NCBI GenBank assembly: GCA_036873755.1
Contig: JAVTVY010033801.1
Coordinates: 1-64,000 of the forward strand
Length of the DNA: 64,000 nucleotides
Reading direction: 5' to 3'
From: Hanleya hanleyi
Lineage: Eukaryota; Mollusca; Polyplacophora; Lepidopleurida; Hanleyidae
The notes below the pieces were generated by a model. It did no database searches. It had not been told where the DNA came from and saw only the letters and a list, made by a program, of their open reading frames with translations. This document shows positions 7,501-46,715 of this stretch, piece after piece (the first letter of the stretch is position 1; each line of letters opens with the position of its first letter). A program made the translations under genes and the position numbers.

Positions 7501-7559
7501 TGCAAAGTTTTTATTTCAATCTGGACGCGAAGACGTCATAAGAGAGCAATAAAGTCATT

Positions 7560-25788: not shown

Positions 25789-25794
25789 CATGAT
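25789..25794. repeat. Polinton target-site duplication, left (CATGAT)
   Basis: CATGAT directly precedes the AGTAGT terminus and is repeated directly after the ACTACT terminus at 39016-39021. Six base pairs is the duplication length typical of Polinton integrases. Confidence 0.93.
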
Positions 25795-27816
25795 AGTAGT
25801 ATAGTGTACCACTTTCGAGCCAACTTTCACCCGGATGTAGTGACGTCACGGGGAGGCTTTGAGGAGGAACTAGTAGCGCCATCTGTACACTCTGGACGCA
25901 AGGGAGACAACTCGATCTGCCAGAGTTTGGCCGCCATCTTGAATTTTGTGGAAAAGGGGATGTATTCCTCCGCGGTGATGCGGTCTGGCGGTGATGCGGT
26001 CGAGGAAGAAAGCTTCCGCGGAGAAAAAGTAGTCCCTAGACTGGAAATACGCTGCATGGTCCGATTGGGTCGAGTGAGGTATCAAAGTGAAGCATTCGTG
26101 AAGGGGCATCTAATGGGCTGGGTGTGGGGTTGAAATATCGGCATTCTGCGCATGCGCGGTGGCCGAAGGGTATGGAAATAGACGTTTTGGAGCTAGGGGA
26201 GCCCCTAATGGGCCAATGGGGTCGAGTGAGGTATCCATGTGAAGCATTCGTGAAGGGGCATCTGATGGGCTGGGTATGGGGTTGAAATATCGGCATTCTG
26301 CGCATGCGCGGTGGCCAAAGGGTATGAAAATAGACGTGCTGGGATCTAGGGGAGCCCCTAATGGTCCAATGGGGTCGAGTGAGGTATCAATGTGAAGCCT
26401 ATGTGAAGGGGCATCCAGTCATGGGTGGGTGCATGTAAAATTTTTCCTGAAAAAAAACACCGGAACACGGACTTTATCGAAAAATCCGGGAAAATGCCTA
26501 TATGGGGTATGGGGGGTATATAGGTCGCCGGGCTTAACGGGGCTTGCCTATCAATAGAGTTATCTCCCCCTAGTTCCAGGGTGGGTGTATGTAAAATTTT
26601 TCCTGAAAAAATACGGAACACGGACTTTATCCTAAATTACGGGAAAATGCCTATATGGGGTATGGGGGGTATAGGACCATCCTGGGAAACCTACTTCTCG
26701 ACATTTGCGGTATAGGTTGTGGGGGTCTCGTTTTCTTAGTCTCATCATTTAGAACACGATAGGAAGTGTCGCGGAGCGAAACGGTGAAATTTTTGAAAAC
26801 AGTCACCGAGACCCATATAGTCCCATACTGGGGGTATAGGACCAATGTTTGTCCCACTGGGAAATCTACTTCTATATATTTGCGGTATGGTTGTTTGGAT
26901 TTGTTTTCTTAGTCTCGTCAAGACAAACATGATAGGAAGTGTCGAGGAGCGAATCGGTGAAATTCTTGAAAAAAGTCACCGAGACCCATATAGACCCATA
27001 TAGTCCCATACTGGGGGTATAGCACCAATGTTTGTTCCACTGAGAAACCCACTTCTAGACATTTGCGGTATGGTTGTTTGGATTTGTTTTCTTAGTCTCG
27101 TCATTTAGAACACGATAGGAAGTGTCCCGGCACGAAACGGTGAAATTTTTGAAAAAAGTCACCGAGGCCTGGGTAGGCTCATATAGACCCATATACTGGG
27201 ATATAAGCCCAATGTATGTATAAATCCATACGGGGTGGACATGTTGGAGTCTAGGTGAGTCCCTGGTGGTCCAATGGTGTCATATGAGGTCTTATTTTGA
27301 AGCTCTCATACAGGAGCACTTGACTACACTAGTGGTTCGTACGTTGTCAATAGTCTGCGCATGCGCAGCCTGGCCGTAGTAGAGAAAGCAGTCATTTTGG
27401 GGGATGGGTGTGGGTGTGTTTGGGTTAGAGATGGGCTATTCACGGTTCGAATGGGTCGTGTGAGGTATCCATGTGAAGCCTAGGTAATGGAGCCTCTGAT
27501 GGCGTGGATGTGGGGTAGACATAGGGTCATTCTGTGCATGCGCGGTAGCCCAAGGGTATGGGCATAGACGTGTTTGGGGTCTAGGTGGGCCCCTCATGGG
27601 CCTATTGTGTCGAGTGCGGTATCCATGTGAAGCCTAGGTGGGGCAGCATCCACCTGGACTAACATTCACGTGGTTTGGTGGGTCTGCATGACGTCACTTC
27701 CGGTTTGGGTGAATGCTCAAACACAACCTCCAACTTTCTCGGCCCCGGCCCAGCCCCCCAGCGCGCGCGCGCGGGTTCTCCGGCCGCAGCGCGCGCGCGT
27801 TCTCCGGAAGTGCGCG
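25795..27816 (+). repeat. Polinton left terminal inverted repeat
   Basis: Near-identical, in inverted orientation, to 36715-39015. It is built of tandem modules: units of about 151 bp at 26068-26420, two units around CGGAACACGGACTTTATC (26450-26640), and three units of about 172-182 bp around TTTCTTAGTCTCGTC (26736, 26908, 27090). It holds four copies of the palindrome TGCGCATGCGC or a close variant (26147, 26299, 27356, 27533) and GGCCGCCATCTT at 25930. The inner edge is a CG-dinucleotide tract. Its length is unusual in making up, with its partner, about a third of the element. Confidence 0.93.
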
Positions 27817-28033
27817 GGTTGTCCGAAAATGGCGGATACGTTGACCGGAAAGACCCGAAGGTGAACGCCATTGTGGAAAACCCCCACAGACAGGTCAGTA
27901 CATGCATTCCTATGATGTTCACGCATAATAAAAGGATTGATCTGTAATCTGCTCTCTTTTTTGGACTAACCCATCAGAATAGTACGTATCATGGAGTACA
28001 CCCGACGTCTAGGCGCCCATGTGTGACATGGTC
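27817..28033 (+). other. Polinton left leader region, no clear gene
   Basis: Unique DNA between the left inverted repeat and the first TATA box. An open frame at 27675-27947 crosses the repeat edge and is followed by a splice-donor-like CAGGTCAGT at 27891-27899, but nothing supports it as a gene. An AATAAA on the plus strand at 27928-27933 could end a short transcript from the repeat. Confidence 0.35.
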
Positions 28034-28040
28034 TATAAAA
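28034..28040 (+). promoter_or_regulatory. TATA box (TATAAAA) of the tail-anchored protein gene
   Basis: TATAAAA lies 47 bases before the ATG at 28087. TATA-like boxes recur at similar distances (34-58 bases) before several other start codons of the element. Confidence 0.65.
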
Positions 28041-28086
28041 CACGTCTCTCTGGATCCTACACCTTCATTTCTACGGTTGCAGAGCC

Positions 28087-28413
28087 ATGACGGAGATCCA
28101 GCCCTATGCGAGTCGCATTTTACAGCATGCCACCGTGGTGAATTCACTCTCGGGTTACCGAGCAGTGGTCCGGTCCATGTTTGCAGATGGCGACGACAAC
28201 GAGGGGCGCCGCAAGATCCTGAACGAGTTCACAGAAGCGGTCCTCGACAGAGTGCACTCGATGGAGAGGTGTGCCATCACTCACCACTACTGGACTATGA
28301 CAGCCATCCTTGATGCTCGGGCTATGGACCAGGAGCGCTCACGCCGGAACCAGCGACGGCTGGTTGGCCTAGTCATGGTCTGTGCCCTATTGACCCTGGC
28401 GCTGTGGCATTGA
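28087..28413 (+). CDS. Small tail-anchored membrane protein, Polinton-encoded
   Basis: A 108-residue protein of unknown function. The first 85 residues are polar and look helical (for example RRKILNEFTEAVLDRV), followed by a basic stretch (ERSRRNQRRL) and a hydrophobic C-terminal segment (residues about 90-107, LVGLVMVCALLTLAL). That layout predicts a tail anchor with the bulk facing the cytosol or virion interior. It is the first gene after the left inverted repeat, is preceded by its own TATAAAA box, and is intact. A role in virion membrane or host membrane interaction is possible but unsupported by any motif I recognise. Confidence 0.65.
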   Translation: MTEIQPYASRILQHATVVNSLSGYRAVVRSMFADGDDNEGRRKILNEFTEAVLDRVHSMERCAITHHYWTMTAILDARAMDQERSRRNQRRLVGLVMVCALLTLALWH

Positions 28414-28427
28414 CAGTGGGACCTGAC

Positions 28428-28435
28428 TATAAATA
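28428..28435 (+). promoter_or_regulatory. TATA box (TATAAATA) of the first PC4-like gene
   Basis: TATAAATACGAG lies 58 bases before the preferred ATG at 28486; the same TATAAATACGAG stands before the paralogous gene at 29046, so the promoter was duplicated with the gene. Confidence 0.75.
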
Positions 28436-28485
28436 CGAGGGTCAGACAGAGTGTGTGTCATTCACCGTTCGTCATTGGATCAAGC

Positions 28486-28965
28486 ATGTCACCCGTCCTA
28501 CGAGCCATCCTTCCCTTTACACCCCAGGTGGGGTTACACGTCTATGAAGATAAAGTCACCCTCGTGGAAGACCGTGGAGATGTTTGCTGGTCGCGCGCTG
28601 AGACCGTATCGAATACGGTTACGCTACCCCGTGACGGCTGGACCAAATTTAAACGGGTGTTGAGCGGCGAGCTCGACGGACACCTCATCCACATAGACAA
28701 TGCCATCTACGTACACCGTGGACCCTTGTTCCCACGCCTGGGCCGCTACCAAGACCCTACGCGAGGCTTCACCCTAGACCCCGATCTGTGGACAGCCTTC
28801 GAGAAAGTGGTGCCTATCGTGGACCAGCTGTTTACACCGGACGAGCGGTCATCAGACGAGTTGGAGTGGGCTCGTGCCCTGAGAGAAGCGGCGGCAGAAC
28901 CCAATGAACAAATGTCTAGCCATGAACCAGACGACGATGCCATTGATTACCCGGCTAGACTTTGA
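28486..28965 (+). CDS. PC4-like protein, paralog 1 (putative ssDNA-binding)
   Basis: The start at 28486 (MSPVLRAILPFTP) is chosen over the in-frame ATG at 28453 because it aligns with the start of the neighbour at 29046 and gives a normal TATA-to-ATG spacing. The 159-residue product is clearly paralogous to the next gene: both share a GWTKFKRVLSGELDG core, LHVY.DKV before it, and an L.PDLW.A...V..VD motif plus SSDEL after it. The pattern of beta strands, then L..x.GW..F helix, then a second FTLDPDLWTAFEKVVPIVD unit recalls the PC4/p15 single-stranded DNA-binding fold, possibly in two units. That assignment is my inference. The acidic C-terminus (EPDDDAID) is specific to this copy. Intact. Confidence 0.7.
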   Translation: MSPVLRAILPFTPQVGLHVYEDKVTLVEDRGDVCWSRAETVSNTVTLPRDGWTKFKRVLSGELDGHLIHIDNAIYVHRGPLFPRLGRYQDPTRGFTLDPDLWTAFEKVVPIVDQLFTPDERSSDELEWARALREAAAEPNEQMSSHEPDDDAIDYPARL

Positions 28966-28998
28966 CCACCCGATCCTTTGATCTCACGGGGTTCTCCC

Positions 28999-29006
28999 TA
29001 TAAATA
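28999..29006 (+). promoter_or_regulatory. TATA box (TATAAATA) of the second PC4-like gene
   Basis: Identical in sequence and setting (TATAAATACGAG) to 28428-28439; 40 bases before the ATG at 29046. Confidence 0.75.
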
Positions 29007-29045
29007 CGAGAGACAGTCAGATCTGGTACCATTCACGTACTGACC

Positions 29046-29504
29046 ATGACGGAGCATATAATACGGGCGTCTCTCAGCTTGACCCCCGAGGTTTTCCTGC
29101 ACGTGTATGCGGATAAGGTCGATATCATGGAGGAAGTGGGAGACATCTGTGATGCAGACCCTACACAACCGTGCCCCACCCACATTCGTCTGTCCCGGCA
29201 GGGCTGGACCAAATTCAAACGGGTGTTGTCTGGTGAACTGGACGGCGACCTCATCCACTTGTGTCACGATGTGTACATCCGACGCGGCCCTTTCTTTGCT
29301 CAATTGGCTCGGCTAGATGGAGGTACAGTGCATTTTACCCTTCACCCTGATCTATGGTCTGCATTGGAAGATGCCGTGGTAGATGTGGATGAAGTGCTTA
29401 TCAAGCGGTCATCAGACGAGTTGGACTGGTCATTTACCATGGACACTGTGGAAGCCACGAAGAAAATCAGAAAGAAACTCCGGCCCAAGATATACCCGTT
29501 ATAA
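29046..29504 (+). CDS. PC4-like protein, paralog 2 (putative ssDNA-binding)
   Basis: A 152-residue tandem paralog of the preceding gene. It keeps GWTKFKRVLSGELDG (about residues 57-71), the preceding strand pair (LHVYADKVDIMEE), the RRGP strand and the FTLHPDLWSALED helix. The C-terminus differs: basic and lysine/arginine-rich (KKIRKKLRPK) where paralog 1 is acidic, suggesting divergence of partners. The same tentative PC4-like reading applies. In an element without a DNA polymerase, a retained pair of putative single-stranded DNA-binding proteins would be notable. The TAA stop lies inside the next gene's TATA box and overlaps an AATAAA signal (29504-29509). Confidence 0.7.
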   Translation: MTEHIIRASLSLTPEVFLHVYADKVDIMEEVGDICDADPTQPCPTHIRLSRQGWTKFKRVLSGELDGDLIHLCHDVYIRRGPFFAQLARLDGGTVHFTLHPDLWSALEDAVVDVDEVLIKRSSDELDWSFTMDTVEATKKIRKKLRPKIYPL

Positions 29505-29509
29505 ATAAA
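29500..29509 (+). promoter_or_regulatory. Combined stop codon, TATA box and polyA signal
   Basis: The ten bases TATAAATAAA contain the stop codon of the PC4-like paralog (29502-29504), a TATA box (29500-29507) for the integrase gene starting at 29544, and AATAAA (29504-29509) for ending the upstream transcript. Confidence 0.7.
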
Positions 29510-29543
29510 CGATAGAGCCAGGGTCCATCATCATTGTGTCACC

Positions 29544-30615
29544 ATGAAGCGCTGGGAGAAGGTGTTGGATAACTTATACTACAGCCCCGACAGTCCGGCG
29601 GCCTATAGTGCATTGTCGGCTCTCTATCGAGCGGCCAAACCCCAGGGGATACAACGTGCCCAAGTCCGAGATTGGTTAAGAAAACAAGACACCTATACCT
29701 TACATCGATCTGTCCGTCGCCATTTTCTACGGAACCGGGTCATCGTGGGAGGAATAGATGCCCAGTGGCAAGCGGATTTGGTCGATATGAGCGCCTTTGC
29801 CAAACACAACGATGAGAATCGGTATATCTTGACGTGCATCGATATCCTATCGAAGTATGCGTGGGTGGTACCCATCCGGACGAAAACGGGGGCGAATCTC
29901 ATAGCGGCGTTCAAAGATATCTTCAAGACCGGGCGCAAACCTTTGTATTTGCAAACCGACGAAGGCACGGAATTTCTCAACAGACCGTTCCAACAGTTTC
30001 TGAAAGCCCAGAAGGTGTTTTCTTCCATACGTACAACGAGACCAAGGCTTCCGTGGTGGAAAGGTTCAACAGGACATTCAAAGGCCGCATGTATAAATAT
30101 TTCACCTATAAGAATACAAGGCGGTACATCGATGTTCTCCCGAAACTTGTGAGTGGTTACAATCGAGCCTATCATCGGAGTATAGAGAGAGCCCCCATTA
30201 CCGTGACCCAACGCAATGAAGCCCAAGTCCGGCGTGTCTTGTACCCCAGACAATCGCAGCGAACGCCGAAGGCGGTGTACAAGGTCGGGGACCCTGTACG
30301 GATCAGTAAAGTCAAAGGTCAATTTGAGAAAAGTTACTTGCCCAACTGGAGCGATGAGCACTTCTTGATTAAACGGCGCCTACCCCAACAGCAGCGAGTC
30401 TATGAACTGGAAGATCTTCAAGGGGAACCGTTGCTAGGGACGTTTTACGAGATGGAATTACAGCCTGTCGTAAAACACAGCAAGACTACTACACGGTGGA
30501 GCAGATTTTGAAAACGGAACGTCGACGTGGCAAACTGTTTCATTTCGTCAAATGGCAAGGCTGGCCCAGTTCCTTCAATTCCTGGGTCGCTGCCAACCAG
30601 GTGAAACGACTATAA
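29544..30615 (+). pseudogene. Polinton DDE integrase with C-terminal chromodomain, two frame breaks
   Basis: Retrovirus-type (rve) integrase that inserts the linear element and makes the 6-bp duplication. The first frame (29544 to about 30020) carries an N-terminal helical region and the catalytic aspartates in QADLVDM (residue 78) and LQTDEGTEF (139). The second (to about 30475) carries the catalytic glutamate in SVVERFNRTF and the C-terminal Arg/Lys-rich region. The third (to 30615) is a chromodomain with YTVEQIL, FVKWQGWP and NSWV, expected to bind methylated histone tails and steer integration. Breaks fall at a T4 run (30018-30021) and an A4 run (30472-30475), each a -1 change, so they may be decay or base-calling errors. 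The total size, about 357 residues, is normal for a chromodomain-bearing Polinton integrase. Confidence 0.92.
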
Positions 30616-30616
30616 A
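30611..30616 (+). promoter_or_regulatory. TATA box (TATAAA) containing the integrase stop codon
   Basis: TATAAA precedes the ATG at 30648 by 37 bases; its TAA (30613-30615) is the stop codon of the chromodomain frame. This supports both the chromodomain end and the start of the next gene. Confidence 0.65.
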
Positions 30617-30647
30617 GCCAGACACCACTGCCGTCATCCTTCATTCC

Positions 30648-31258
30648 ATGTCCGACCACAGTGCTTTGGACAAACAGCAGCTGCCTCTGAACACAGCGTC
30701 TCCCAAAACGCGCAAAGCGCAAGTGGGCTTTGTGGTGATACTGCTAACCCTGCTGAGTGTGTTGTACGGAGGTGTGTTTACGACGTAGCCTATGTCAGCA
30801 CGCTACGTAACCAACTGAGAACACCAGCCATCAGTGAAACCAGTCTACAGATAGCACCAGTCAACCCCGTATCGAGCCCAGTCACCACCACACCCCGTGT
30901 ACAAGCCACGTCGAGCTCCACACCAAGCTCCACATCTACACCAAGTACACCCAGTACGTCTGAAGACCCACCGGATTTCATCCCTCACAGTGAAAAGACA
31001 ACGACGACGGACGTTGTACCCACCACCACCATCATCACTCGCAGTGAACAGACAACGACGACCGACGTTGTACCCACCACCACCACCACTCCAGTTCACT
31101 CGTACGAAATTTACAAGAGCGGGTTACCACGACAACGGATACAGCTCGAACCATGGACCCTCGGTGGCAGCATCCCTTCACGTGTCTCATCGCAGGACCG
31201 ACGGGCTCCGGCAAAACGCACTTCGTCCGGAAGCTCCTTCAACACGCCGACAGCATGA
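30648..31258 (+). pseudogene. Membrane-anchored Ser/Thr-rich (mucin-like) protein, one frame break
   Basis: The first frame (30648-30788) encodes a short polar N-terminus (about 25 residues) and one membrane segment, VGFVVILLTLLSVLYGG. A -1 break near 30777-30785 leads into a frame without stops to 31258 that continues the protein: about 120 residues rich in Ser, Thr and Pro, with a doubled 17-18-residue repeat (SE.TTTTDVVPTTT, 30988-31092). This is the layout of a type II membrane protein with a heavily O-glycosylated stalk. The C-terminal part overlaps the first 106 bases of the ATPase gene in another frame. It could serve as a surface or attachment protein, or be a scaffold; no domain identifies it. 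The continuity across the break is inferred from composition and spacing. Confidence 0.6.
30988..31092 (+). repeat. Tandem 51-54-bp repeat in the Ser/Thr-rich frame
   Basis: Two adjacent units, each containing CAGTGAA, AGACAACGACGAC and GACGTTGTACCCACCACCACC, encode SE(K/Q)TTTTDVVPTTT in the frame of the mucin-like stalk. In-frame expansion suggests the stalk frame was translated when the repeat arose. Confidence 0.75.
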
Positions 31259-31760
31259 TCACCCCACCATTGCCCGAGTCGTGTGGTGTTATGGAGAATG
31301 GCAGGAAGCGTATGCAGCAATGCCCCACATCACGTTCGTGGAAGGCCTACCCAACCTGGCCGATTTGGAACCGGACACCTTGGTGGTTCTGGATGATCTC
31401 ATGGCGGAGACGGATGCGCGGGTCACCCAACTCTTTACCAAAGGCAGCCACCATCGACGGCTCAGCATCATCTACATTGTGCAGAATCTGTTCAGTAAAA
31501 ACAAAGAACATCGGAACATCAGCTTAAATGCCCACTACCTGGTGGTCTTCAAAAACCCGAGAGATACCACTCAACTGCTGCACCTGGCGAGACAGATGTA
31601 TCCCGGCCGCACACCGTTTGCGTTGGAAGCCTTTAAAGATGCCACAACCCCTCAGCACGGGTATATGCTCTTCGACCTCAAGCAAGCCACCCCCGAACAC
31701 CTTCGACTACGGACCGGCATCTTTCCCGGGGAGGACCACCACGTGTACATGCAAAAATAA
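31153..31760 (+). pseudogene. FtsK/HerA-type genome-packaging ATPase, one frame break
   Basis: The packaging ATPase of Polintons and related viruses, which pumps DNA into the capsid. The first frame holds a short N-terminus and the Walker A motif GPTGSGKT (residues 15-22). A -1 break near the C4 run at 31262-31265 leads to the second frame, which carries VVWCYGEWQ, the Walker B stretch TLVVLDDLM, the sensor-like IIYIVQNLF and the conserved YLVVFKNPRD. Combined length is about 202 residues, normal for the family. The start ATG follows no TATA box, so it may be translated from the transcript of the preceding gene, with which it overlaps. AATAAA at 31819-31824 probably ends the transcript. Confidence 0.92.
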
Positions 31761-31818
31761 TGTGAACACAACCACAGTGGCGCCCCCAGCTGCAGTGTGT
31801 GTGTTTGATGATGGAGAT

Positions 31819-31824
31819 AATAAA
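31819..31824 (+). terminator. PolyA signal after the ATPase gene
   Basis: AATAAA lies 59 bases past the ATPase stop, in the gap before the next gene's promoter. Confidence 0.55.
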
Positions 31825-31872
31825 AAGAATGAATACCACAGCAGGGTTGACTTTATCTCTGTTCTCTGAGGA

Positions 31873-31881
31873 AGATAAAAA
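31873..31881 (+). promoter_or_regulatory. TATA-like box (AGATAAAAA) of the core-protein gene
   Basis: AGATAAAAAGG lies about 35-40 bases before the tandem ATGs at 31915 and 31918, the same spacing as the other boxes of the element, but with G at the second T position. Confidence 0.45.
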
Positions 31882-31914
31882 GGGCAGAGTTGTGAGTTCT
31901 GCCATTAGTTGTAC

Positions 31915-32259
31915 ATGATGTCTGCGCGAGTACGGAAGCACGCTCCCACGCTCCGTGTATTGAAGACGGCCCCACCCGAGTTGGTCCGAACCATTGTACG
32001 CGGTGCGGACCCTGACCTTGTACGCTGTCTGTGAGAGATCGGATACAACCTGTTAAAAGGCAACGTACCACTGACTCCGGCTCAGAAGACCAAGTTGGCC
32101 GAACATAAGACAGGTCTCCGAACCCTAGTCCAGAAGCGGGTCCCTCAAACACAAAAGAAAAAGGTGTTACAGAAAGGCGGCTTTCTCGGGGCCATCTTAG
32201 CACCGTTGGCCGCTTCGGTGTTGGGTCCAGTATTGGGTGGACTCTTCGGCCGACAATGA
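31915..32259 (+). pseudogene. Small Polinton core/membrane-active protein, one in-frame stop
   Basis: An otherwise open 114-codon frame interrupted by a single TGA at 32032-32034. The N-terminal half is helical (ELVRTIVRGADPDLVRCL), a basic middle follows (TLVQKRVPQTQKKK), and the C-terminus is a glycine/alanine/leucine-rich hydrophobic segment, GGFLGAILAPLAASVLG, then GGLFG. This layout is familiar from small Polinton proteins placed next to capsid genes and resembles amphipathic, membrane-active virion proteins; the exact role is unknown. It overlaps the next gene by four bases (ATGA at 32256-32259), indicating one transcript and coupled translation. The nonsense codon is a substitution, so it is unlikely to be an indel-type sequencing error. 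Confidence 0.75.
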
Positions 32260-33095
32260 ACCACACGAAAAAAATGGTCCTCGTCGAACCACGATTCCTT
32301 CAAAACCTCCAATCGCCCTACCCTGTCCCACCTACGGTGAAGACCATAAACACCCTCGATGGAGAGATGCAACAGATCTTACAGAGACCGGGGTTAAGCG
32401 ACAGTGAGAAAGTACAACGGTACAATGAGACGCTTCAAAGGTACATGACGTTCATGGACCAATACAAAACCCTCTCTACCCCACCACTAGCACCACCACC
32501 ACCACGTGACACACCGCCGACCTCAGCACCGCTCCAACAGCCGCCATTACCAGGGGTACCACCCACAGCCCCACAGTGGGTGGAAGACGAAGTCCTGAAG
32601 AGTGTACCTGCATCGTTCAAGAAACAAGCTGGCCTGGTATTACAACGGGTGAAACAGAATCCAAACATGACTTGGAATGATAAAGGCGAACTACTGGTAC
32701 AGAATCAGGTGGTCCCCGGGACCCACATGACGGATTTAGTGAATGATCTGATGCGTAAACGCAGGTCGCACACGGATCCTCGAGGATGGGAGGTCTTTGC
32801 TCAAGGCTTGAAAGACATGCATGTACCACAGGAATTGATGGGGAACCCCCACCGCTGGGCCTTTATGCAGCGAACCCAGCAATCGCCGAGTGGCCCACTA
32901 CCTTCTTGGGAATCCGACTGGGAACCGGAGTCACCCCCCAAAACTCCACCACCACAACGGGCACCTTCTTTTCAGACCTTTAAAAAACCACCCTTGATCA
33001 GGACACCCCACATCTCCAGAGCCCGGACACGTAGCAAGTCAACGCGACGAACACGACGCCGGACACAACCGCCCAAGGCCTGGAACACCTATTAA
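32256..33095 (+). CDS. Conserved Polinton protein with Pro-rich linker and Arg-rich tail
   Basis: Intact, 279 residues. The N-terminal region (1-70) is helical with a heptad-like LDGEMQQILQRPGLSDSEK stretch; residues 72-106 are a proline-rich linker; residues 107-205 form a compact domain with LKSVP...KKQAGLVLQRVKQNP, W..KGEL and DLVNDLMRKRR...GWEVFAQGL...VP.ELMGN..RW; and the C-terminus is proline-rich, then arginine/serine-rich (TRSKSTRRTRRRT). The arrangement matches a widespread Polinton protein usually found beside the capsid genes; its function is not known to me. The basic tail suggests nucleic-acid contact in the virion. M7 (32274) is an alternative start. Confidence 0.75.
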   Translation: MNHTKKMVLVEPRFLQNLQSPYPVPPTVKTINTLDGEMQQILQRPGLSDSEKVQRYNETLQRYMTFMDQYKTLSTPPLAPPPPRDTPPTSAPLQQPPLPGVPPTAPQWVEDEVLKSVPASFKKQAGLVLQRVKQNPNMTWNDKGELLVQNQVVPGTHMTDLVNDLMRKRRSHTDPRGWEVFAQGLKDMHVPQELMGNPHRWAFMQRTQQSPSGPLPSWESDWEPESPPKTPPPQRAPSFQTFKKPPLIRTPHISRARTRSKSTRRTRRRTQPPKAWNTY

Positions 33096-33097
33096 AA
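33090..33097 (+). promoter_or_regulatory. TATA-like box (TATTAAAA) containing a stop codon
   Basis: TATTAAAA lies 39 bases before the penton-like gene ATG (33129). Its TAA (33093-33095) is the stop of the preceding gene, the same overlap as at 29502 and 30613. Confidence 0.5.
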
Positions 33098-33128
33098 CCA
33101 ACAGCAGCAGCAGGACAGCTCAGTCGCC

Positions 33129-33917
33129 ATGTTTTACCTCACTCTACCTAGTAACAGTTCGCTGGATGTGTTTCCTGACAACACCGTGGCCAAGTACGTA
33201 ACCCAGTTACCGCAACCGTTGCATTTACCTGGGCGCTGGGAATGTGGCCTCGTGGATATCCAATACCCTTACTCGTGGTACAACGTACGAGCCAATGAAG
33301 TGTGGTACGACGTGACCTACGAAGGAAAAGACACCCGACTCACCCTCCCCGAGGGCCAATACGATACTCCCAAGGAGTTCATGGGTGGGCTGTCAAGCCT
33401 GTTGCATTATAAGGCTCTACGGGAGGTCACGAATACTTCAAAACCCATCAAAGCCTATCCCTTCAAGAATCACGTGAACTTCGATTACAACGCACACAAC
33501 GACAAGGCACAGCTTATCGTCACCGCCAACGCGAGTGTGGTACTGAGTCCTATCCTACAGCAAATGCTGGGTTTCGATCTACGGACGTTCGCTGGTCCCA
33601 CCGCCCACCAAGGCGAGATCCCGATGGATATGAAGTCGGGTACGTACGGACTCTACGTCTACTCGGACGTGGTGGACAACCACATCGTGGGCGATATCAA
33701 CACACCTCTGTTACGGGTGGTGCCCATTTAAAAGTTGTATGGAGATCAAGTCACCCACAGTTTCACCCACATGCTCTACCTGCCCGTACGACAAACACAC
33801 ATCAACACGATCACGGTGGATATAAGAGATGACACGGGACGACCGGTGGCATTCGAACGCGGGAAAGTGGTGGTGACACTTCATTTTCGACAAGCACGTG
33901 CTCCCCACTTTGTATAA
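33129..33917 (+). pseudogene. Penton-like minor capsid protein, one in-frame stop
   Basis: Single-jelly-roll minor capsid (penton) protein of Polintons. The N-terminus (FYLTLPSNSSLDVFPDNT) and LPGRWECGLVDIQYPYSWYN are characteristic, as are HVNFDYNAH, LQQMLGF, GLYVYSDVV...VGD...PLLRVVP and the C-terminal ITVDIRDDTGRPVAFE followed by GKVVVTLHF. The frame is continuous to 33917 except for one TAA at 33729-33731, just after PLLRVVPI; the rest of the protein follows in the same frame. Full length would be about 262 residues. The stop could be decay or could yield a truncated product. The final stop overlaps the start of the next gene by one base (TAATG). Confidence 0.9.
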
Positions 33918-34321
33918 TGGAGGTGCCTTACGAGTGCGATGCACGCAGCTATATGGACTATTATGCCCAACAGGCCGGGGGTGGCTTTCCGGTTTTTAGT
34001 GGTGCACGCATGCAACGTGGACATGGACTGGGGAACATACTCGGGAGCATCGTCAAAACGTTCCTGCCCTTGGTGACGCGTGGGGTGAAAGCAATGGGCA
34101 AACAAGCGGTACGCAGTGGACTGCAAGTGGCCGGTGATGTCTTAGGGGGTACGGCACCCAAAGAATCCTTGAAACGGCGGGCCAAAGAAGCGGGAGGCGT
34201 CTTGGTGGCCAAAGCACAACGCACCGTAAGGAATAAAAGACCTGCCCCACCGAGACCACGCACCAGTCCACGACCCACCCAGCGACGACGCACATCGAAG
34301 ACCCGGGATATCTTTTCTTAA
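33917..34321 (+). CDS. Adenovirus pVI/pX-like minor virion protein
   Basis: Intact, 134 residues. After a short N-terminus (DARSYMDYYAQQAGGGFPVFSG) there is a glycine-containing sequence, QRGHGLGNILGSIVKTFLP, then an amphipathic region (VKAMGKQAVRSGLQVAGDVLGG) and a strongly basic, proline/arginine-rich tail. This layout is that of Polinton and adenovirus-like minor core/membrane-lytic proteins, which sit inside the capsid and help DNA condensation and endosome escape; such proteins are often matured by the virus protease. YYAQQAGGG and MQRGHGLG contain small-residue sites that the downstream protease might cleave, which is an inference. Start ATG overlaps the preceding stop, so translation is probably coupled. 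Confidence 0.85.
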   Translation: MEVPYECDARSYMDYYAQQAGGGFPVFSGARMQRGHGLGNILGSIVKTFLPLVTRGVKAMGKQAVRSGLQVAGDVLGGTAPKESLKRRAKEAGGVLVAKAQRTVRNKRPAPPRPRTSPRPTQRRRTSKTRDIFS

Positions 34322-34323
34322 AC

Positions 34324-35635
34324 ATGTCCTTGATCCACGCCGAGTCCTGCCCCTCCACCAACAGTGAATTTGATTTGTGGACCGTGCCGCCCACACAGAC
34401 CAGTGTCGAACAAGGATTATGGGTGGAGCATCTCCGCTGTCCAGCATCAACGCAACAGGGCCCATCGAGTTCACCATCAGTAATGCGGATACGGCCTATG
34501 TGGATTTAGCCCATACATACTTGCATGTGAAAGCCAAGATCGTCAATGGAGATGGCACCAGAATCGCCGACCAAGCAACGGTGGGCCCGACGAATCTCTG
34601 GCTGCACTCGATGTTTCAACAGGTGGATATTTTCTCAGCGACAAACTCATCAGTGACTCGACCAACACGTACCCCTATCGAGCCTACATCGAGACGCTGT
34701 TGTCGCATGGACGAGAGGCTAAAAAATCTCAACTGACAGCCGCTTTGTTCTACCAGGACAGAGCCGAGCACATGGGCGCAGAGAACGACAATACGGGATA
34801 TAGCAAACGGAAGGCTTTGACCGCGAACGGCGTCTCGGTGGATCTCATAGGTCGACTGCACGCAGATATGTTCATGCAAGACCGATACCTCTTGAACAAG
34901 ATCCCCATCAAAATCCGACTGATACGGGCGCCTCCGACCTTCGCTTTGATGGCCACTAACGTAGAGGCGCATGCAGCTGACTATAAGATTGTCATCGAAG
35001 ACGCAGTCCTGTATGTCCGAAAAGTGAAACCGAATCCAGCCGTTCGATTGGGATACATGAAAGCCTTGGAAACAAAACCAGCCCAGTACCCTATCCGACG
35101 TGTACAAACCAAAGTGTTCTCTGTGTCTGCTGGAAATATGAGCGCCAACAAAGAAAACCTGTTCCTGGGGGAACTACCCAAGCGATTGATCCTGGCCTGT
35201 GTGGAAAATACCAGTTTCAGTGGAGCCTACCCAGAGAATCCGTTTGACTTTAAACATTTCGGCATCAATTTTGTGGCCCTGCATGTGGATGGACAACAGG
35301 TGCCAGCCACGGCCTTAACCCCGAACTTTGGGCGCGCGAATTTCATTCGAGCCTATCAGAGCCTGTTTACAGCCACCGGTCAAATCAACCAGGACGAAGG
35401 GAATTTCATCAGTCGGGAGGACTACGGGAACGGATACACGTTGTTCTGTTTCGATTTGACCCCTACCTTAGAGAACGACCATCAGCTGGCCCTCGCCAAG
35501 CAAGGCAATTTACGGTTGGAAATCCACTTTCAACGAGCCCTCCGGAGCACCGTCAATGTGATCTGCTACGCCGAGTTTGACAACATCATTCAAGTGGACA
35601 AGGCGCGCAACGTGCTGTGTGACTTCTCCACCTAA
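34324..35635 (+). pseudogene. Double-jelly-roll major capsid protein (hexon), two frame breaks
   Basis: The largest virion gene, encoding the trimeric major capsid protein of Polintons. The first frame (34324 to about 34430) has FDLWTVPPTQTSVEQG; the second (to about 34633) has GPIEFTISNADTAYVDLAHTYL and NLWLHSMFQQVDIF; the third (to 35635) has STNTYPYRAYIETLLSHG, ALFYQDRAEHM, the middle IRLIRAP and YKIVIEDAVLYVRKVK, and the C-terminal LRLEIHFQRAL and NVICYAEFDNIIQVD. Both changes are -1; the second is at a T4 run (34630-34633), the first in a C/T-rich stretch near 34425-34436. Combined length is about 437 codons, toward the short end for the family. The gene follows the pVI-like gene by two bases. 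Confidence 0.92.
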
Positions 35636-35636
35636 C

Positions 35637-36110
35637 ATGGATACAGACCAGATAACCACCGTGCTGGAGAATGACCCAGAGACACGTATGGTGTTTCAAG
35701 GGGTGTTCGCCCGAGATGTGTTCCCATTAGACCGTATGTATCCTGCTGCTTACGTTCTCAACACGGACCCGATGGATCGGCCCGGTGAACATTGGGTGGC
35801 CGTGTACTTGACAGAAGCGCAGGGCGAATACTTTGACCCGTACGGCCTGCCACCCCGCCATCCCGATTTAACAGACTTCATGGATCAAGGCACAGAGACG
35901 TGGTGTTGGAACAGTCAAACGTTGCAAAGCCTGACCAGTAGCGTGTGCGGACAATATTGCTTGTTTTACCTGTACCATCGATGCCGGGGAAGACCCTTAT
36001 CTACCATCGTACAGATGTTTGACGAGTACCCCAAGGCCGAGGACCGCGATGTACTCGTATATGACTGGGCCGCCCATCATTTCAATGTACAAGCCCCGTT
36101 CTGGGCTTGA
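35637..36110 (+). CDS. Adenain-like cysteine protease (virion maturation)
   Basis: Intact, 157 residues, starting two bases after the capsid stop (the in-frame upstream codons belong to the capsid gene). Catalytic residues are visible: His52 in GEHWVAVY, the acidic residue Asp67 in YFDPYG, Gln97, and Cys104 in SSVCGQYCLFYL, with the Gln-to-Cys spacing of seven seen in adenovirus proteases. Length and order match Polinton proteases (C5/Ulp1 clan). It probably cleaves the pVI-like protein and other virion components. The last codons (FNVQAPFWA) are encoded by the first unit of a tandem repeat that continues past the stop (36080-36254). Confidence 0.93.
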   Translation: MDTDQITTVLENDPETRMVFQGVFARDVFPLDRMYPAAYVLNTDPMDRPGEHWVAVYLTEAQGEYFDPYGLPPRHPDLTDFMDQGTETWCWNSQTLQSLTSSVCGQYCLFYLYHRCRGRPLSTIVQMFDEYPKAEDRDVLVYDWAAHHFNVQAPFWA

Positions 36111-36254
36111 ATTCTTTCAATGTACACACGCCCGCTGTTCTGGGCTTAAGTTTACAAGCCCCCTCTTCTGGGCTTCAGTTCTTTCAATGTACAAGCCCGC
36201 TGTTCTGCGCTTCAGTTCTTTCAATGTACAAGCCCCTTGTTCTGGGCTTCAGTT
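36080..36254 (+). repeat. 37-bp minisatellite seeded by the protease 3' end
   Basis: Five imperfect units of about 37 bp (one shortened) built from TTTCAATGTACAAGCCC, TTCTGGGCTT and CAGTTC. The first unit is the protease C-terminal coding sequence including its TGA; the others extend into the 3' untranslated region. Confidence 0.8.
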
Positions 36255-36290
36255 TTCACGTGGTTGTTCTCACGTTGTTGTTGTTCACTG

Positions 36291-36296
36291 AATAAA
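36291..36296 (+). terminator. PolyA signal of the capsid/protease transcript
   Basis: AATAAA follows the minisatellite 180 bases after the protease stop, and is faced at 36333-36338 by a minus-strand AATAAA, marking convergent transcription. Confidence 0.6.
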
Positions 36297-36332
36297 AAAT
36301 GAGATCTCACCAAAAAACCCTGTCTTGTGTGT

Positions 36333-36338
36333 TTTATT
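36333..36338 (-). terminator. PolyA signal of the minus-strand small gene
   Basis: TTTATT on the plus strand is AATAAA on the minus strand, 45 bases past the stop of the small frame at 36383-36514. Confidence 0.45.
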
Positions 36339-36382
36339 CATAATACATAAATGCCCAATGTGGAGATTCAGTCAAACTGAAA

Positions 36383-36514
36383 TCAGTGGTGTAGGATGGG
36401 GCCAAAATGTAACCCATCAATGTTAGAATGCAAGAGCACTATAGTAAAATAGAGAGCCAATGAAATCAGCCCACAGACCAAGTACGTGTTTTGGTCTAGG
36501 TTTGGAGCGGCCAT
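36383..36514 (-). CDS. Putative small single-pass membrane protein
   Basis: A 43-residue frame starting MAAPNLDQNTY, then one hydrophobic segment (LVCGLISLALYFTIVLL) and a short polar tail. The start at 36514 is preferred because it has a good context (GAAATGGCC) and lies downstream, on the minus strand, of CCAAT and a TATA-like TTTTAAAATA (36590-36625); the frame itself is open further upstream to 36817, into the right inverted repeat. A minus-strand polyA signal follows. It would be the only leftward gene of the element. Very short frames with hydrophobic content arise by chance, so this is tentative. Confidence 0.4.
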   Translation of the reverse strand: MAAPNLDQNTYLVCGLISLALYFTIVLLHSNIDGLHFGPILHH

Positions 36515-36714
36515 TTCATTGAGGTGCGTGTAAAGGAAGACGGTGAGAGAAGACTCGTCCAACACGTATAGATTAAGTTTATTACTATAAGTTCTATGTA
36601 TTTTAAAATCGCTGATTGGTCCAAATGGAACTGCCCATCCTTCCCAGGTTAATTTACAATTCCCTTTTCTTTGACCTTTTGATCCGACATGCTTCCGCGC
36701 ACTGCCGGTGATGA
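36515..36714 (-). promoter_or_regulatory. Possible leftward promoter region beside the right inverted repeat
   Basis: On the minus strand this has GGACCAATCAGCG (a CCAAT box) followed by TTTTAAAATACATAG, then about 85 bases to the ATG at 36514. It adjoins the GC-rich inner edge of the inverted repeat. Confidence 0.35.
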
Positions 36715-36734
36715 CGCGCACTTCCGGAGAACCC

Positions 36735-36792
36735 GCGCGCGCGCGCTGCGGCCGGGCCGGGCCGGGCGGGCCGGGGCCGGGCCGGGGCCGAG
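36735..36792 (+). repeat. CG-dinucleotide and G-run tract at the inner edge of the right arm
   Basis: CGCGCGCGCG is followed by repeated GGGCC/GGGGCC with at least four G-runs of three or more within 35 bases (36751-36786), a sequence able to form a G-quadruplex and Z-DNA. The left arm (27740-27800) has a shorter, rearranged version. Confidence 0.7.
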
Positions 36793-37528
36793 AAAGTTGG
36801 AGGTCGTGTTTGAGCATTCACCCAAACCGGAAGTGACGTCATGCAGACCCACCAAACCACGTGAATGTTAGTCCAGGTGGATGCTGCCCCACCTAGGCTT
36901 CACATGGATACCGCACTCGACACAATGGGCCCATGAGGGGCCCACCTAGACCCCAAACACGTCTATGTCCATACCCTTGGGCTACCGCGCATGCGCAGAA
37001 TGACCCTATGTCTACCCCACATCCACACCATCAGAGGCTCCATTACCTAGGCTTCACATGGATACCTCACACGACCCATTCGAACCGTGAATAGCCCATC
37101 TCTAACCCAAACACACCCACACACCCCCCAAAATGCCTGTTTTCTCTACTACGACCAGGCTGCGCATGCGCAGACTGTTGACAACGTACGAACCATTAGT
37201 ATAGTCAAGTGCTCCTCCATGAGAGCTTCAAAATAAGACCTCATACGACACCATTGGACCACCAGGGACTCACCTGGACTCCAACATATCCACCCCGTAT
37301 GGATTTATACATACATTGGGCTTATATCCCAGTATATGGGTCTATATGAGCCTACCCAGGCCTCGGTGACTTTTTTCAAAAATTTCATCGTTTCGTGCCG
37401 GGACACTTCCTATCGTGTTCTAAATGACGAGACTAAGAAAACAAATCCAAACAACCATACCGCAAATGTCTAGAAGTGGGTTTCCCAGTGGGACAAACAT
37501 TGGTGCTATACCCCCAGTATGGGACTAT

Positions 37529-37804
37529 AATAACTTATAATAACTTTTTTATTGACACATCAACGCAGTCAGCAGACTGGTAATATAGTCATACAAATAA
37601 GAAGAACAAGTTGCCAAACATGACAGATGAATACAAGAGGAATAAAAGCAATATTCACATGACGCAAAGCTGACATAATTCAATAACCTTAGGCCCTATC
37701 AATCTGACACATGTATATATACTATTAGCTTGATATGATCCGGATATTTCACACTGCATGAAGGAAATTATTGATCTCGTAACTTTTCGCAAGCAAGCAA
37801 GAGT
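37529..37804 (-). mobile_element. Short insertion in the right inverted repeat, probably a LINE/SINE 3' end
   Basis: Interrupts the block ...AGTATGGGACTAT/ATGGGTCTATATGGG that is continuous in the left arm. On the minus strand it ends CAATAAAAAAGTTATTATAAGTTATT, that is an AATAAA signal followed by a short repetitive tail, as in 5'-truncated retroposons. No coding remains. No clean target duplication was found. Confidence 0.55.
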
Positions 37805-39015
37805 ATGGGTCTATATGGGTCTCGGTGACTTTTTTCAAAAATTTCACCGATTCGCTCCGCGACACTTCCTATCATGTTTGTCTTGACGAGACTAAGAAAA
37901 CAAATCCAAACAACCATACCGCAAATGTATAGAAGTAGGTTTCCCAGTGGGACAAACATTGGTGCTATACCCCCAGTATGGGACTATATGGGTCTCGGTG
38001 ACTTTTTTCAAAAATTTCACCGTTTCGCTCCGCGACACTTCCTATCGTGTTCTAAATGACGAGACTAAGAAAACGAGACCCCACAACCTATATTGTTGTC
38101 GAGATGTCGAGAAGTAGGTTTCCCAGGATGGTCCTATACCCCCCATACCCCATATAGGCATTTTCCCGTAATTTAGGATAAAGTCCGTGTTCCGTATTTT
38201 TTCAGGAAAATTTGTACATACACCCACCCTGGAACTAGGGGGAGATAACTCTATTGATAGGCAAGCCCCGTTAAGCCCGGCGACCTATATACCCCCCATA
38301 CCCCATATAGGCATTTTCCCGGATTTTTCGATAAAGTCCGTGTTCCGGTGGGGTTTTTTTCAGGAAAAATTTTACATGCACCCACCCATGACTGGATGCC
38401 CCTTCACATAGGCTTCACATTGATACCTCACTCGACCCCATTGGAGCATTAGGGGCTCCCCTAGATCCCAACACGTCTATTTTCATACCCTTTGGCCACC
38501 GCGCATGCGCAGAATGCCGATATTTCAACCCCACACCCAGTCCATGAGATGCCCCTTCACGAATGCTTCACATGGATACCTCACTCGACCCCATTGGCCC
38601 ATTAGGGGCTCCCCTAGCTCCAAAACGTATATTTTCATACCCTTTGGCCACCGCGCATGCGCAGAATGCCGATATTTCAACCCCACACCCAGCCCATTAG
38701 ATGCCCCTTCACGAATGCTTCACTTTGATACCTCACTCGACCCAATCGGACCATGCGGCGTATTTCCAGTCTAGGGACTACTTTTTCTCCGCGGAAGCTT
38801 TCTTCCGCGACCGCATCACCGCCAGACCGCATCACCGCGGAGAAATACATCCCCTTTTCCACAAAATTCAAGATGGCGGCCAAACTCTGGCAGATCGAGT
38901 TGTCTGCCTTGCGTCCAGAGTGTACAGATGGCGCTACTAGTTCCTCCTCAAAGCCTCCCCGTGACGTCACTACATCCGAGTGAAAGTTGGCTCGAAAGTG
39001 GTACACTATACTACT

Positions 39016-39021
39016 CATGAT
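39016..39021. repeat. Polinton target-site duplication, right (CATGAT)
   Basis: Perfect match to 25789-25794; the unoccupied paralogous site at 8360-8365 has it once. Confidence 0.93.
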
Positions 39022-43839: not shown

Positions 43840-45224
43840 TTTGATGATGAATGAGTTCAGGATCTTTGGTAATTATACGAGTTCGGAATCTTTGGGAATT
43901 TACGCGTGCAAGATATTCGGTAATTCCCAAATTAGTAGTACATGTCATTAAGACCTGGAAGACAGAATGGCCGCCATTTTGGAAATGATGAACGTAAAAT
44001 CGGACTGATCGAACAAATCTCTACATAGATGGTAAATTAGCATTCCGGCATTAAGCCTACAATGAACCCACAAAAAAAACTTTTGCAGTTTTAAACACCT
44101 GTTTTCTATTTTAAAAACACCATCTGTGTTGTGTATTAACACGCAACTGTTGTTTTCGTAACACAACACCAGTAATTTCTGCGCCTATCGAATAAAAGTA
44201 TAATTCCAATGGAGGTCGAAAGACTGTGCATGAACGAAAGTTAATGACAAGAAGAAGAGATAAAAGGAAGTGTGCGCATTAAAATCAGAGAGTATCTTCT
44301 TAATCAGTAGAACGTTTTACCTTGGGTACATCAATCGGTATTTATCTTAGTGCCAAACAAATACAAGACAAAAATATTTCTGAGACTCCCGTCGATAGAT
44401 AAACACAATTCTGAGTATGAAGATGGTACAACGAAGTGTTGTTCATATGGAGGTATGTTTACATGAGATAGCTGAAATACAATCCTCTCGTGCATTCTTG
44501 TCTGCCACACAGCTGGCCTGAACTCCATATATCGGTGAGTGGAAATAAGTCTATGATATGTCTGTATACAATACAATAGCATACTCCTTGAGAACTACGT
44601 ACTGCTAGTGATCTGATCAATTAAATCGGCGGTTGAGTGTCGATGCAGCTGATGATAAGGACACCTGAGTACATGCCATTACTAGTGTTAATATATCTAC
44701 ACCTGTAATGTGGCCATATCAGTCCGACGAGCAATCAATACCACCAACACAGGTGATTACACACCTTCTGCACGATACTCAGTATTTTTTACATTACAGT
44801 ATTTTCATCTTCACAGCTCCAGTACGTGTAGCTAGTGTTAGACTTGAGGTTGTGAAGATTTTCCCTCGTAAACAAATCAAAATAAACTAATTTCTTGTGG
44901 AGCCTGACAAGTTATATCAAATACCGGATTATCTGGTTGTTAAATAGATATAATAATTTAGCCATACACTTGTCAAATTCGTTTTTAATATAGCCCATAA
45001 ACACCTACTAATAAGGCAAATTACTCCTTGTTAATTAAATCGATACATTTATATTTACCATATATCTCAGCCAGACATTCCTGGTTACTTTTTAATGATG
45101 TACGTCGAACTCGAGGTATATTGAGCTTCTATGACGTACATTTATTTTGAGGCTAATGCCGCACCCCTGTTATAATGACATATATAGTTATTCATATATA
45201 TATAGCTTCAGTATATCGATCACA
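43840..45224. repeat. Repeat segment C, copy 3
   Basis: Matches 10740-12220: GAGTTCGGAATCTTTGG, TCTTAATCAGTAGAA, TGGAGGTATGTT, TCTGCCACACA, GTCCGACGA, GACGTACATTT and TATATATAGCTT. It ends at the LINE target duplication GATCACA (45218-45224). Confidence 0.7.
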
Positions 45225-46715
45225 CCAGAGCGGTTATTTTAACTGACTCTTTAAGTGCCTTACAAGCCTTACTCAATTTTACTTGGAATCAGTCATCTGG
45301 TATAATATATGAAATATTACATATTCTCTCTGATATGCAAGTAAACAATATTAATGTTTACTTGGCATGGATACCTGGGCATTCAGGAATACAAGGCAAT
45401 GAATTGGCAGACCATCTTGCCAACCAAGCACGGTCATTTGACACTGTGTCAATTGATATCGGTCTTACCTTATCAGAAGCAGTGTCTTGTTTATATCCCC
45501 ATTTTAATTCGCTATGGCAAGATCTTTGGGATAATTCAGATAAAGGTCGATTTTATTATAGATTCCAACCTTCCATTAAAGGTGGTGTTTTAGATTTACA
45601 GTCACGTTGGACTGAAGTACTTATGTTTCGACTTTTAGTTGGTCACATTCCACTTAATTTTTATCTTCATAAGCGAAATATTCATGATAATGGTTTATGT
45701 GACTCCTGTGATTTTGAAGAAACTATTAGTCATTTTTTACTTAATTGTACTCGGTATGTAAACCAACGACAATTACTTTTTGAGGAACTTATACTGGCTG
45801 GTGATTTTAACCCAACTTTGGATTCTATGTTGAATCCCCCTAAAAACAGGGATAAAGTGTTTGCGGCACTGTCTAGATTCATGATACGATCTAAGAGATT
45901 TTAGTGAAAGTTTTGCAACTATTTCTTTTTACTAGACACCCGCAATTTTTTATATTGGTTTTACCATTGTGTTATAGAGTTTAATATCTAGTCTAGGTTA
46001 CTCTAATGGTACATGCATATAATTTTTAGTTTACAAAAATGAGCTGAGGACTATTTGATACCAATTCAATATATATTTTCTTATTGGTGGTTAAAAATTA
46101 TCACTGCTCGATTAAAAGAGCACATTTTAAAAGATATCCATGCTCCTTCTAATTGGATATTAGTGTTTGATGATACCATTGGAGGTCATCATTCGCGGTA
46201 TTTTTTCGGGAGGAGTATGGATGTTATATCAATTATTGTTTTTAATTATCCACCTGCTCATCTTAATTATATATCGAGTTAAATAAAGTTATAGTCAAAA
46301 ACGAAATATGCATGTACTATTTTGGCCTTTTTAATTCAGTTTTATATTATTTTATAAATAGGGTCGTTGGTGTATTATGGTTGTTGATCTGATTATTTCC
46401 CCTTCCTTTTATGCCTATAAATAAAGCCTTTGGAGTCTTTTCCTATATGTTGTTTTTATTAGCATATTCAATCTAGTCAATTATATATAATTTTCTTTTC
46501 TTTAGTCTATAAATACACTTTAGCTATTTATACAGACATCTGTCTAATTTTCTCAATATATTTTCCCCGTTGCTTTTTTAACACACCGTTTTTAACACTT
46601 TTTATTGTGTTTTTAAAATCAGTTTTATTTTTTATTACCTCAATGCAATGATACTGGCGCGCATAATCCAAACAGATTGCATGCGCCATCCAAATTCAAA
46701 ACTGACTGACTGACT
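45225..46715 (+). mobile_element. 5'-truncated LINE with RNase H domain (I/Nimb-like)
   Basis: Flanked by a 7-bp direct repeat GATCACA (45218-45224 and 46716-46722); the empty site exists at 12210-12226. It contains the end of the second open frame (45227-45904), a long AT-rich 3' untranslated region, and a terminal (ACTG)n tail (46701-46715). The element is severely 5' truncated: reverse transcriptase and endonuclease are missing. Confidence 0.88.
45227..45904 (+). pseudogene. LINE ORF2 C-terminal part: RNase H end and zinc knuckle
   Basis: The open frame begins at the truncation point, before the first ATG (45335). It contains the RNase H motifs VILTDSLSALQAL (with its catalytic Asp) and VYLAWIPGHSGIQGNELAD (His and the final Asp), then a C-terminal domain with the Cys/His pattern CDSCDFEETISHFLLNC. 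RNase H plus this zinc motif is typical of I-clade LINEs (I, Nimb, Outcast, R1-like). The frame is open to its natural stop, so the insertion is fairly young, but it lacks the N-terminal enzyme domains and a promoter. Confidence 0.88.

Follow-up and report, generated by a model that had tools for sequence, protein, structure and literature searches.

A recurrent Polinton family without polB in Hanleya hanleyi and its probable replication in trans

The first 64,000 nucleotides of contig JAVTVY010033801.1 of Hanleya hanleyi (Mollusca, Polyplacophora; assembly GCA_036873755.1), hereafter the window, contain at positions 25795-39015 a 13,221-bp copy of a Polinton that carries integrase and virion genes and in which searches of the window found no gene for the protein-primed DNA polymerase B (polB, encoding PolB). 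The copy belongs to a family whose best explanation, to which we give a probability of roughly 0.72, is an ancestral loss of polB followed by multiplication with the family's own terminal inverted repeats (TIRs), PolB being supplied in trans.

The polB-less element and its recurrence in the genome

The element has the ends of a Polinton/Maverick. Specifically, the left TIR (25795-27816, + strand) begins with AGTAGT and contains tandem arrays, the right TIR (36715-39015, - strand) finishes with ACTACT, giving the (AGT)2//(ACT)2 termini, and a perfect 6-bp target-site duplication (TSD), CATGAT, lies on both sides (25789-25794 and 39016-39021). The two TIRs, of ~2 kb, are identical at 1960 of 2012 aligned bases, small gaps aside, and differ by 2.6%; a 276-nt AT-rich stretch (37530-37805), present in the right TIR and with no counterpart in the left one, is probably a later insertion. 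Both ends, the target duplications and the inverted repeats listed in an earlier note on this DNA, made by eye from the letters, are confirmed.

The same note had seen no polB in the core, and the searches agree. Nine PolB probes, one from a polB-bearing Polinton (L001) and eight from the same genome, gave no tblastn match at E <= 0.1 in the core or the window, and all nine matched the broken PolB of a further Polinton contig (L003; 1.3e-35 to 1.5e-7); the L001 probe alone gave a single chance-level match (E 0.93). The profile search of the core that had been proposed was also run, and neither PolB nor any other polymerase family was found by Pfam in 92 of the element's 118 six-frame stretches of at least 54 amino acids, the 26 unscanned ones lying in or at the TIRs. 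At E <= 0.05, where the best 25 of 29 families were viewed, helicase-type matches are weak (e.g., Viral_helicase1, 0.048) and coincide with the P-loop of the packaging ATPase. The three PolB fragments of L003 go undetected by Pfam, and therefore it is the tblastn result that carries the weight.

In the 2.48-Gb assembly (52,793 contigs, to which the C-numbers refer), the PolB family PF03175 has 164 matches, a lower bound with 84 of 1723 candidates scored, and polB-bearing Polintons are, by this count of domain matches, plentiful in the same genome. Gene order was compared in stretches of ten PF03175-matching contigs. In seven of them (C18969, C27644, C41386, C18518, C3529, C2308, C6973) the protease is followed directly 3' by an antisense polB, and the first five have the full series integrase, ATPase, small open reading frame (ORF), PZ, minor capsid protein (mCP), PW, major capsid protein (MCP), protease (PRO) and polB; virion genes were not matched in the fetched stretches of C14261, whose contig ends soon after polB, C4967 and C28015. 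Measured against these relatives, the window shows the usual local gene order minus its last gene, polB. The place of the antisense polB is taken in the window by a short junction segment of ~0.6 kb (36111-36714), after which the right TIR begins; it has a GC content of 0.40 in 36291-36714, compared with 0.50-0.57 in the coding core, and contains opposed polyA-type hexamers (+ strand at 36291, - strand at 36338), with further - strand ones at 36583 and 37553. Since polB is fixed in the relatives and only a short segment stands here, the gene would have been lost at this place before the family multiplied.

The junction recurs. A search of the genome with positions 35500-36850 (1351 bases) scored 40 of 5162 candidates, the window included, and in all 40 matches the protease continues into the junction segment, with main pieces 91-100% identical. 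The match extends to the TIR in 35 of the 40, in one piece in 13 (12 reaching base 1341 or beyond, one reaching base 1271) and in at least two pieces in 22, and the largest gap between neighbouring pieces is 233 bp. None of the 39 other contigs is among the listed PF03175 contigs, both lists being partial. The first 601 bases of the TIR matched 59 places (40 of 5780 candidates scored), and C19322 is, among the contigs listed, the only one of the TIR list that also occurs in the PolB list, its polB lying outside the element that the TIR opens. Facing pairs of ends, ~13-15 kb apart, were located in five further contigs (C8367, C19673, C37384, C8146, C19269), and in the first four the side from the protease to the TIR was read: the sequence of the window continues through the protease and the junction segment into the inner TIR, with main pieces 92-96% identical and an unmatched gap never above ~0.22 kb. 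A pair of PC4-like genes (described below) was read in C37384, C8146 and C8367, the stretch of C19673 stopping short of it, and the room between the read parts is ~6.0 kb in C37384 and ~6.2 kb in C8146, versus 6.1 and 6.6 kb in the window; in C19673 it is less.

The copies represent separate insertions. Six copies have six TSDs (CATGAT, GGGGCA, TGCAGT/TGCAGC, AGCATG, AACGAA, TAGCTT), five perfect and one at 5/6, and the AGTAGT/ACTACT ends are kept in all six. At terminal positions 7-27, the left and right ends within a copy are alike at 19-21 of 21 bases in five copies (C19269, readable at just 4 bases, has 3 of them alike), and between copies 5-14 of the 21 bases are alike (ten pairs with full data); therefore, the two ends of each copy were made alike before insertion, as expected if one end serves as the model for the other during replication. 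For the junction-read copies, this matching took place in genomes already without polB at its place. The six different TSDs, the matched ends and the shared junction together indicate that the polB-less form multiplied and inserted repeatedly, and the family, which lacks a recognisable replicase, has yet spread repeatedly, as would be expected of a virion-encoding satellite. The recurring polB-less form with capsid genes that the earlier note had envisaged thus exists; of the two origins that it offered, a lineage is favoured by the shared junction and the separate insertions, and a deletion private to this copy is rejected. Siblings with polB next to a unique scar in the window copy are not what was found, as the loss predates the multiplication.

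Proposed replication in trans and the competing explanations

In the proposed mechanism, the ancestor would have carried a PC4-like gene, integrase, ATPase, PZ, mCP, PW, MCP, protease and antisense polB; polB would have been lost between the protease and the right TIR, and the shortened element would have gone on multiplying and inserting with its own TIRs. Replication would be protein-primed, with PolB, including its terminal protein, coming from polB-bearing Polintons in the same nucleus and acting on the short terminus that the two kinds of element share. Integration would rely on an integrase of the family's own type, and the PC4/PUR-like proteins may coat or unwind single strands during copying. 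The kept AGTAGT/ACTACT ends are common to polB-bearing neighbours, so trans replication by the PolB of these neighbours would best explain how the polB-less form multiplied. Among five polB-bearing elements whose ends were sought, C27644 (15,683 bp), C41386 (15,316 bp) and C18969 (18,502 bp) have AGTAGT ends and perfect TSDs. According to PMC8097293, vertebrate Mavericks end most often in (AGT)2//(ACT)2, and such terminal repeats are tied there to the jumping-back step of protein-primed replication.

Several observations weigh against this reading. No helper pair was identified among the elements compared; the polB-bearing C18518 begins with AGTAGA, and no end pair was found in the fetched sequence of C2308. 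The earlier note had asked whether copies with and without polB share TIRs, and they do so in part: the AGTAGT ends are common to three polB-bearing elements, and the TIR interiors in the fetched stretches are unlike those of the polB-less family, which would leave a helper nothing but the short end to act on. Moreover, five of the 40 junction matches (C1166, C3462, C38867, C33354, C10483) stop 47-48 bases before the TIR, their listed pieces reaching only base 1168-1169; the stretch fetched from C19269 is repeat sequence and leaves the interior of that copy unread; C8367 is ~2.2 kb longer than the window between integrase and PZ, a difference known by length only, which is less than the ~3.3 kb of polB unless other genes were lost there. 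All copies read are decayed, and the genome counts are lower bounds, with 40 of the 5162 junction candidates scored.

The strongest competitor is a variant of replication in trans, and its odds overlap with those given above: a deletion product similar to a defective-interfering genome would have been replicated in trans during a short burst, with its virion genes as idle passengers. We regard this as a serious contender, at somewhat below even odds. It accords with the differences between the window and C8367, which resemble post-insertion decay: 20/992 (2.0%) in a piece of MCP, 11/471 (2.3%) in PRO and 13/455 (2.9%) in the non-coding junction, to be compared with 2.6% between the window's own TIRs, and ratios of synonymous to nonsynonymous codons of 7:11 in MCP and 3:7 in PRO. 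As these differences are about as large as the divergence of the window's own TIRs, nearly all of them may have arisen after insertion, and they give no measure of selection in the polB-less state. Conversely, C8367 has neither of the two frame breaks of the window's MCP, its similarity continuing in a single frame at these points and shifting at others, and the breaks therefore postdate the split of the two copies; the identity of the TIRs, which falls to 87% among 40 main TIR matches, favours more than one moment of amplification; and protein b of the PC4-like pair has some excess of synonymous change (21:18 codons, synonymous to nonsynonymous, summed over three siblings). The corresponding ratios are 14:34 for protein a and 8:34 for ORFa, and in a codon-position test between copies the changes are too few to show selection and the differences are close to neutral. 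The opposite reading of the same data, a true virion-encoding satellite that makes its own capsids and integrase and draws protein-primed replication from co-resident Polintons, is tentative and in our estimate rather doubtful.

Replication by host DNA polymerases or by an unrecognised replicase of the element's own, with the PC4/PUR-like proteins as recruiting factors, is an unlikely alternative. The absence of any polymerase family among the 92 scanned frames, where the P-loop families belong to the packaging ATPase, is compatible with it, as is the doubling of the PC4/PUR-like gene, which is single in four polB-bearing elements. However, a PC4-like gene also precedes the integrase in polB-bearing elements and is thus no substitute for polB, and all six copies retain the AGTAGT ends. 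That the copies multiplied solely inside duplicated host DNA would suit the high junction identities, up to 98-99%, but is rejected for the six copies read by their different TSDs and flanks and is very improbable. A loss of polB by the window copy alone after insertion, which might be suggested by its decay and by the short segment of higher AT content, with its opposed polyA-type hexamer, at the place of polB, has next to no probability, with the polB-less junction recurring in 40/40 scored matches and in the four copies read directly.

Relation to known systems and significance

A Polinton is by definition an element that makes its own polymerase. With non-autonomous transposons and satellite viruses the polB-less family would share the dependence on an enzyme provided in trans. 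Most genes are lost from elements of the type of miniature inverted-repeat transposable elements, and satellites like phage P4 take their capsids from a helper; the polB-less family, unlike either, keeps its virion genes without the polymerase. With Polintons/Mavericks (Polintoviricetes) the window element shares an rve integrase with chromodomain, the ATPase, PZ, mCP, PW, MCP and an adenain-like protease, as well as the TIRs, the 6-bp TSD and the (AGT)2 ends, and it differs from them in that no protein-primed PolB (pPolB) was found, so that it counts as a derivative without polB rather than as a self-synthesising Polinton. Its 13.2 kb compare with a mean of ~17 kb given for intact vertebrate Mavericks in PMC8097293, which also mentions Mavericks with a polB fragmented by stops and frameshifts.

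Other lineages combine capsid genes with a missing ordinary pPolB. Polinton-like viruses (PLVs) are described in PMC11071308 as mostly without pPolB and rve integrase, and Tlr1 as having an rve integrase and a pPolB-helicase fusion; Tlr1 and the PLVs thus resemble the window element in their capsid genes without ordinary pPolB, and Tlr1 also in its integrase. The members described there encode another replicase (pPolB-S1H, PolA-S3H, AEP-S3H), whereas none was found in the window element, which has an rve integrase, unlike a typical PLV, and no large Tlr1-like helicase protein, its longest core frame (383 aa) lying within MCP. Virion genes of adenovirus type also occur in genomes without recognisable PolB and integrase (PMC11071296). 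The adomaviruses and meldviruses treated in that source are, like the window element, animal-associated, carry virion genes of adenovirus or adintovirus type and lack PolB; in contrast to it, they also lack the integrase or have other replicases, and one adabscovirus has no discernible replicase, yet is circular. In the literature searched, outside which most subscription papers fall, no account was found of a Polinton family that lacks polB yet occurs in many copies with integrase and capsid genes.

A form that bears capsid and integrase genes in tens of copies without polB suggests that polB can be supplied in trans within the nucleus of its host, and it opens a route to the question whether Polintons retain virion genes in order to make virions. 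Polinton/Maverick particles are stated in PMC8097293 not to have been observed so far, and if the capsid genes were under selection in copies that cannot copy themselves, this would be indirect evidence for particles. A virion-encoding satellite, if true, would be the mirror image of the satellites that borrow capsids.

Genes of the window copy and further observations

All core genes lie on the + strand, in the order ORFa, two tandem paralogues, integrase, ATPase, small ORF, PZ, mCP, PW, MCP and protease; MCP, mCP, PZ and PW were assigned by similarity to L001, a polB-bearing Polinton on a contig filed as a bacterial metagenome-assembled genome (MAG). ORFa (28087-28413, 108 aa) has a C-terminus that is hydrophobic by eye and a weak relative (2.7e-6) in the polB-bearing element C3529. 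The integrase (29541-30594; rve 3.7e-11, chromodomain 7.8e-8 in Pfam, and similar to L001) is broken over three frames and the packaging ATPase (31153-31760; Adeno_IVa2 1.6e-4, 21.1 bits versus a cut-off of 21, and similar to L001) over two. A small conserved ORF (32035-32259) precedes the PZ-like gene (32256-33095), followed by the minor capsid (penton-like) gene (33129-33911), which has a premature in-frame stop at 33729-33731, the PW-like gene (33917-34321), the MCP gene (34324-35635), broken over three frames and similar to L001 and to the MCP relative P0001, and the adenain-like protease gene (35577-36110; Peptidase_C5 7.4e-4, slightly below its cut-off, and similar to L001). The integrase, ATPase, both capsid proteins, protease and the protein that the earlier note called pVI/pX-like, here PW-like, are all upheld by Pfam or L001 similarity. 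Its wording of a complete Polinton with a full virion gene set stands for the gene set and the ends but not for "complete": against L001 and P0001, at least four genes are broken (integrase, ATPase and MCP by frame, mCP by the stop), and open frames persist in both PC4-like genes and in PZ, PW and protease. Judged by its frames, the window copy is a decaying fossil and no working element.

The tandem genes before the integrase (protein a, 28453-28965, 170 aa; protein b, 29046-29504, 152 aa, 48% identical to a over 135 aa) probably encode putative single-stranded DNA-binding proteins of PC4/PUR type. The candidate fold is one of tandem beta4-alpha modules like those of Pur-alpha, MRP1/2 and Whirly; when structures were compared with that of protein b, the scores of unrelated folds came close, and the pair has no match to the Pfam PC4 family (PF02229). 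A PC4-like gene lies ahead of the integrase in all four polB-bearing elements examined for it, as a single gene of 231-308 aa that is doubled in the window; three of these four counterparts score above the PF02229 cut-off and one below, and they have no sequence similarity to the pair (best E 0.71). Neither protein b nor the pair found relatives in protein searches. Between a and b, the nonsynonymous rate (dN, NG86) is 0.40 and the synonymous rate (dS) is not estimable, with 48, 28 and 79 differences at the three codon positions over 124 codons.

Two candidate marks of a special polB-less lineage were discarded. The order of integrase before ATPase, considered because the integrase of L001 lies between PZ and mCP, is normal in this genome, and the PC4-like pair has a PC4-like gene at the same place in polB-bearing elements.

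In the MCP protein search, 1202 of 2061 candidates reached E <= 0.001, and the few named relatives among the 120 listed include proteins from two sea cucumbers and from a snail, Littorina saxatilis; a tree of MCP was uninformative, the window lying on a long branch. Scans of viral contigs with MCP, the PC4-like pair, mCP and PolB gave no relatives, and the 16-base TIR end matched five viral contigs, none with proteins of the element.

At ~36600-36610, 16 of the 40 junction matches have 217-233 extra bases (exactly 221, after base 36609, in eight), and C8146 also has ~0.21 kb extra there, which looks like a subfamily mark. Opposed pairs of polB occur in C28015 (7834-11450 and 25002-28551, ~14 kb apart) and C4967 (17606-21209 and 29337-32946, ~8 kb apart); virion genes were not matched in the stretches fetched, and these pairs are perhaps a polB-bearing, capsid-less counterpart. 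Polinton DNA was also met in contigs filed as bacterial MAGs of tubeworm and mussel symbionts and of Breoghania (L001, L002, L003), presumably derived from animal hosts. L002, a Polinton fragment from a mussel-symbiont MAG, has two diverged integrase copies (4208-5094 and 7211-8188), a decayed one ahead of the ATPase and the other between PZ and mCP; PolB was not matched in its 20.9 kb and the element ends were not found, and it is not counted as a polB-less relative. Lastly, Rfam and tRNA scans gave no matches, and outside the element, at 45206-45904, the window contains RNase H and zf-RVT (below cut-off) domains, as in a retrotransposon of the long interspersed nuclear element type.

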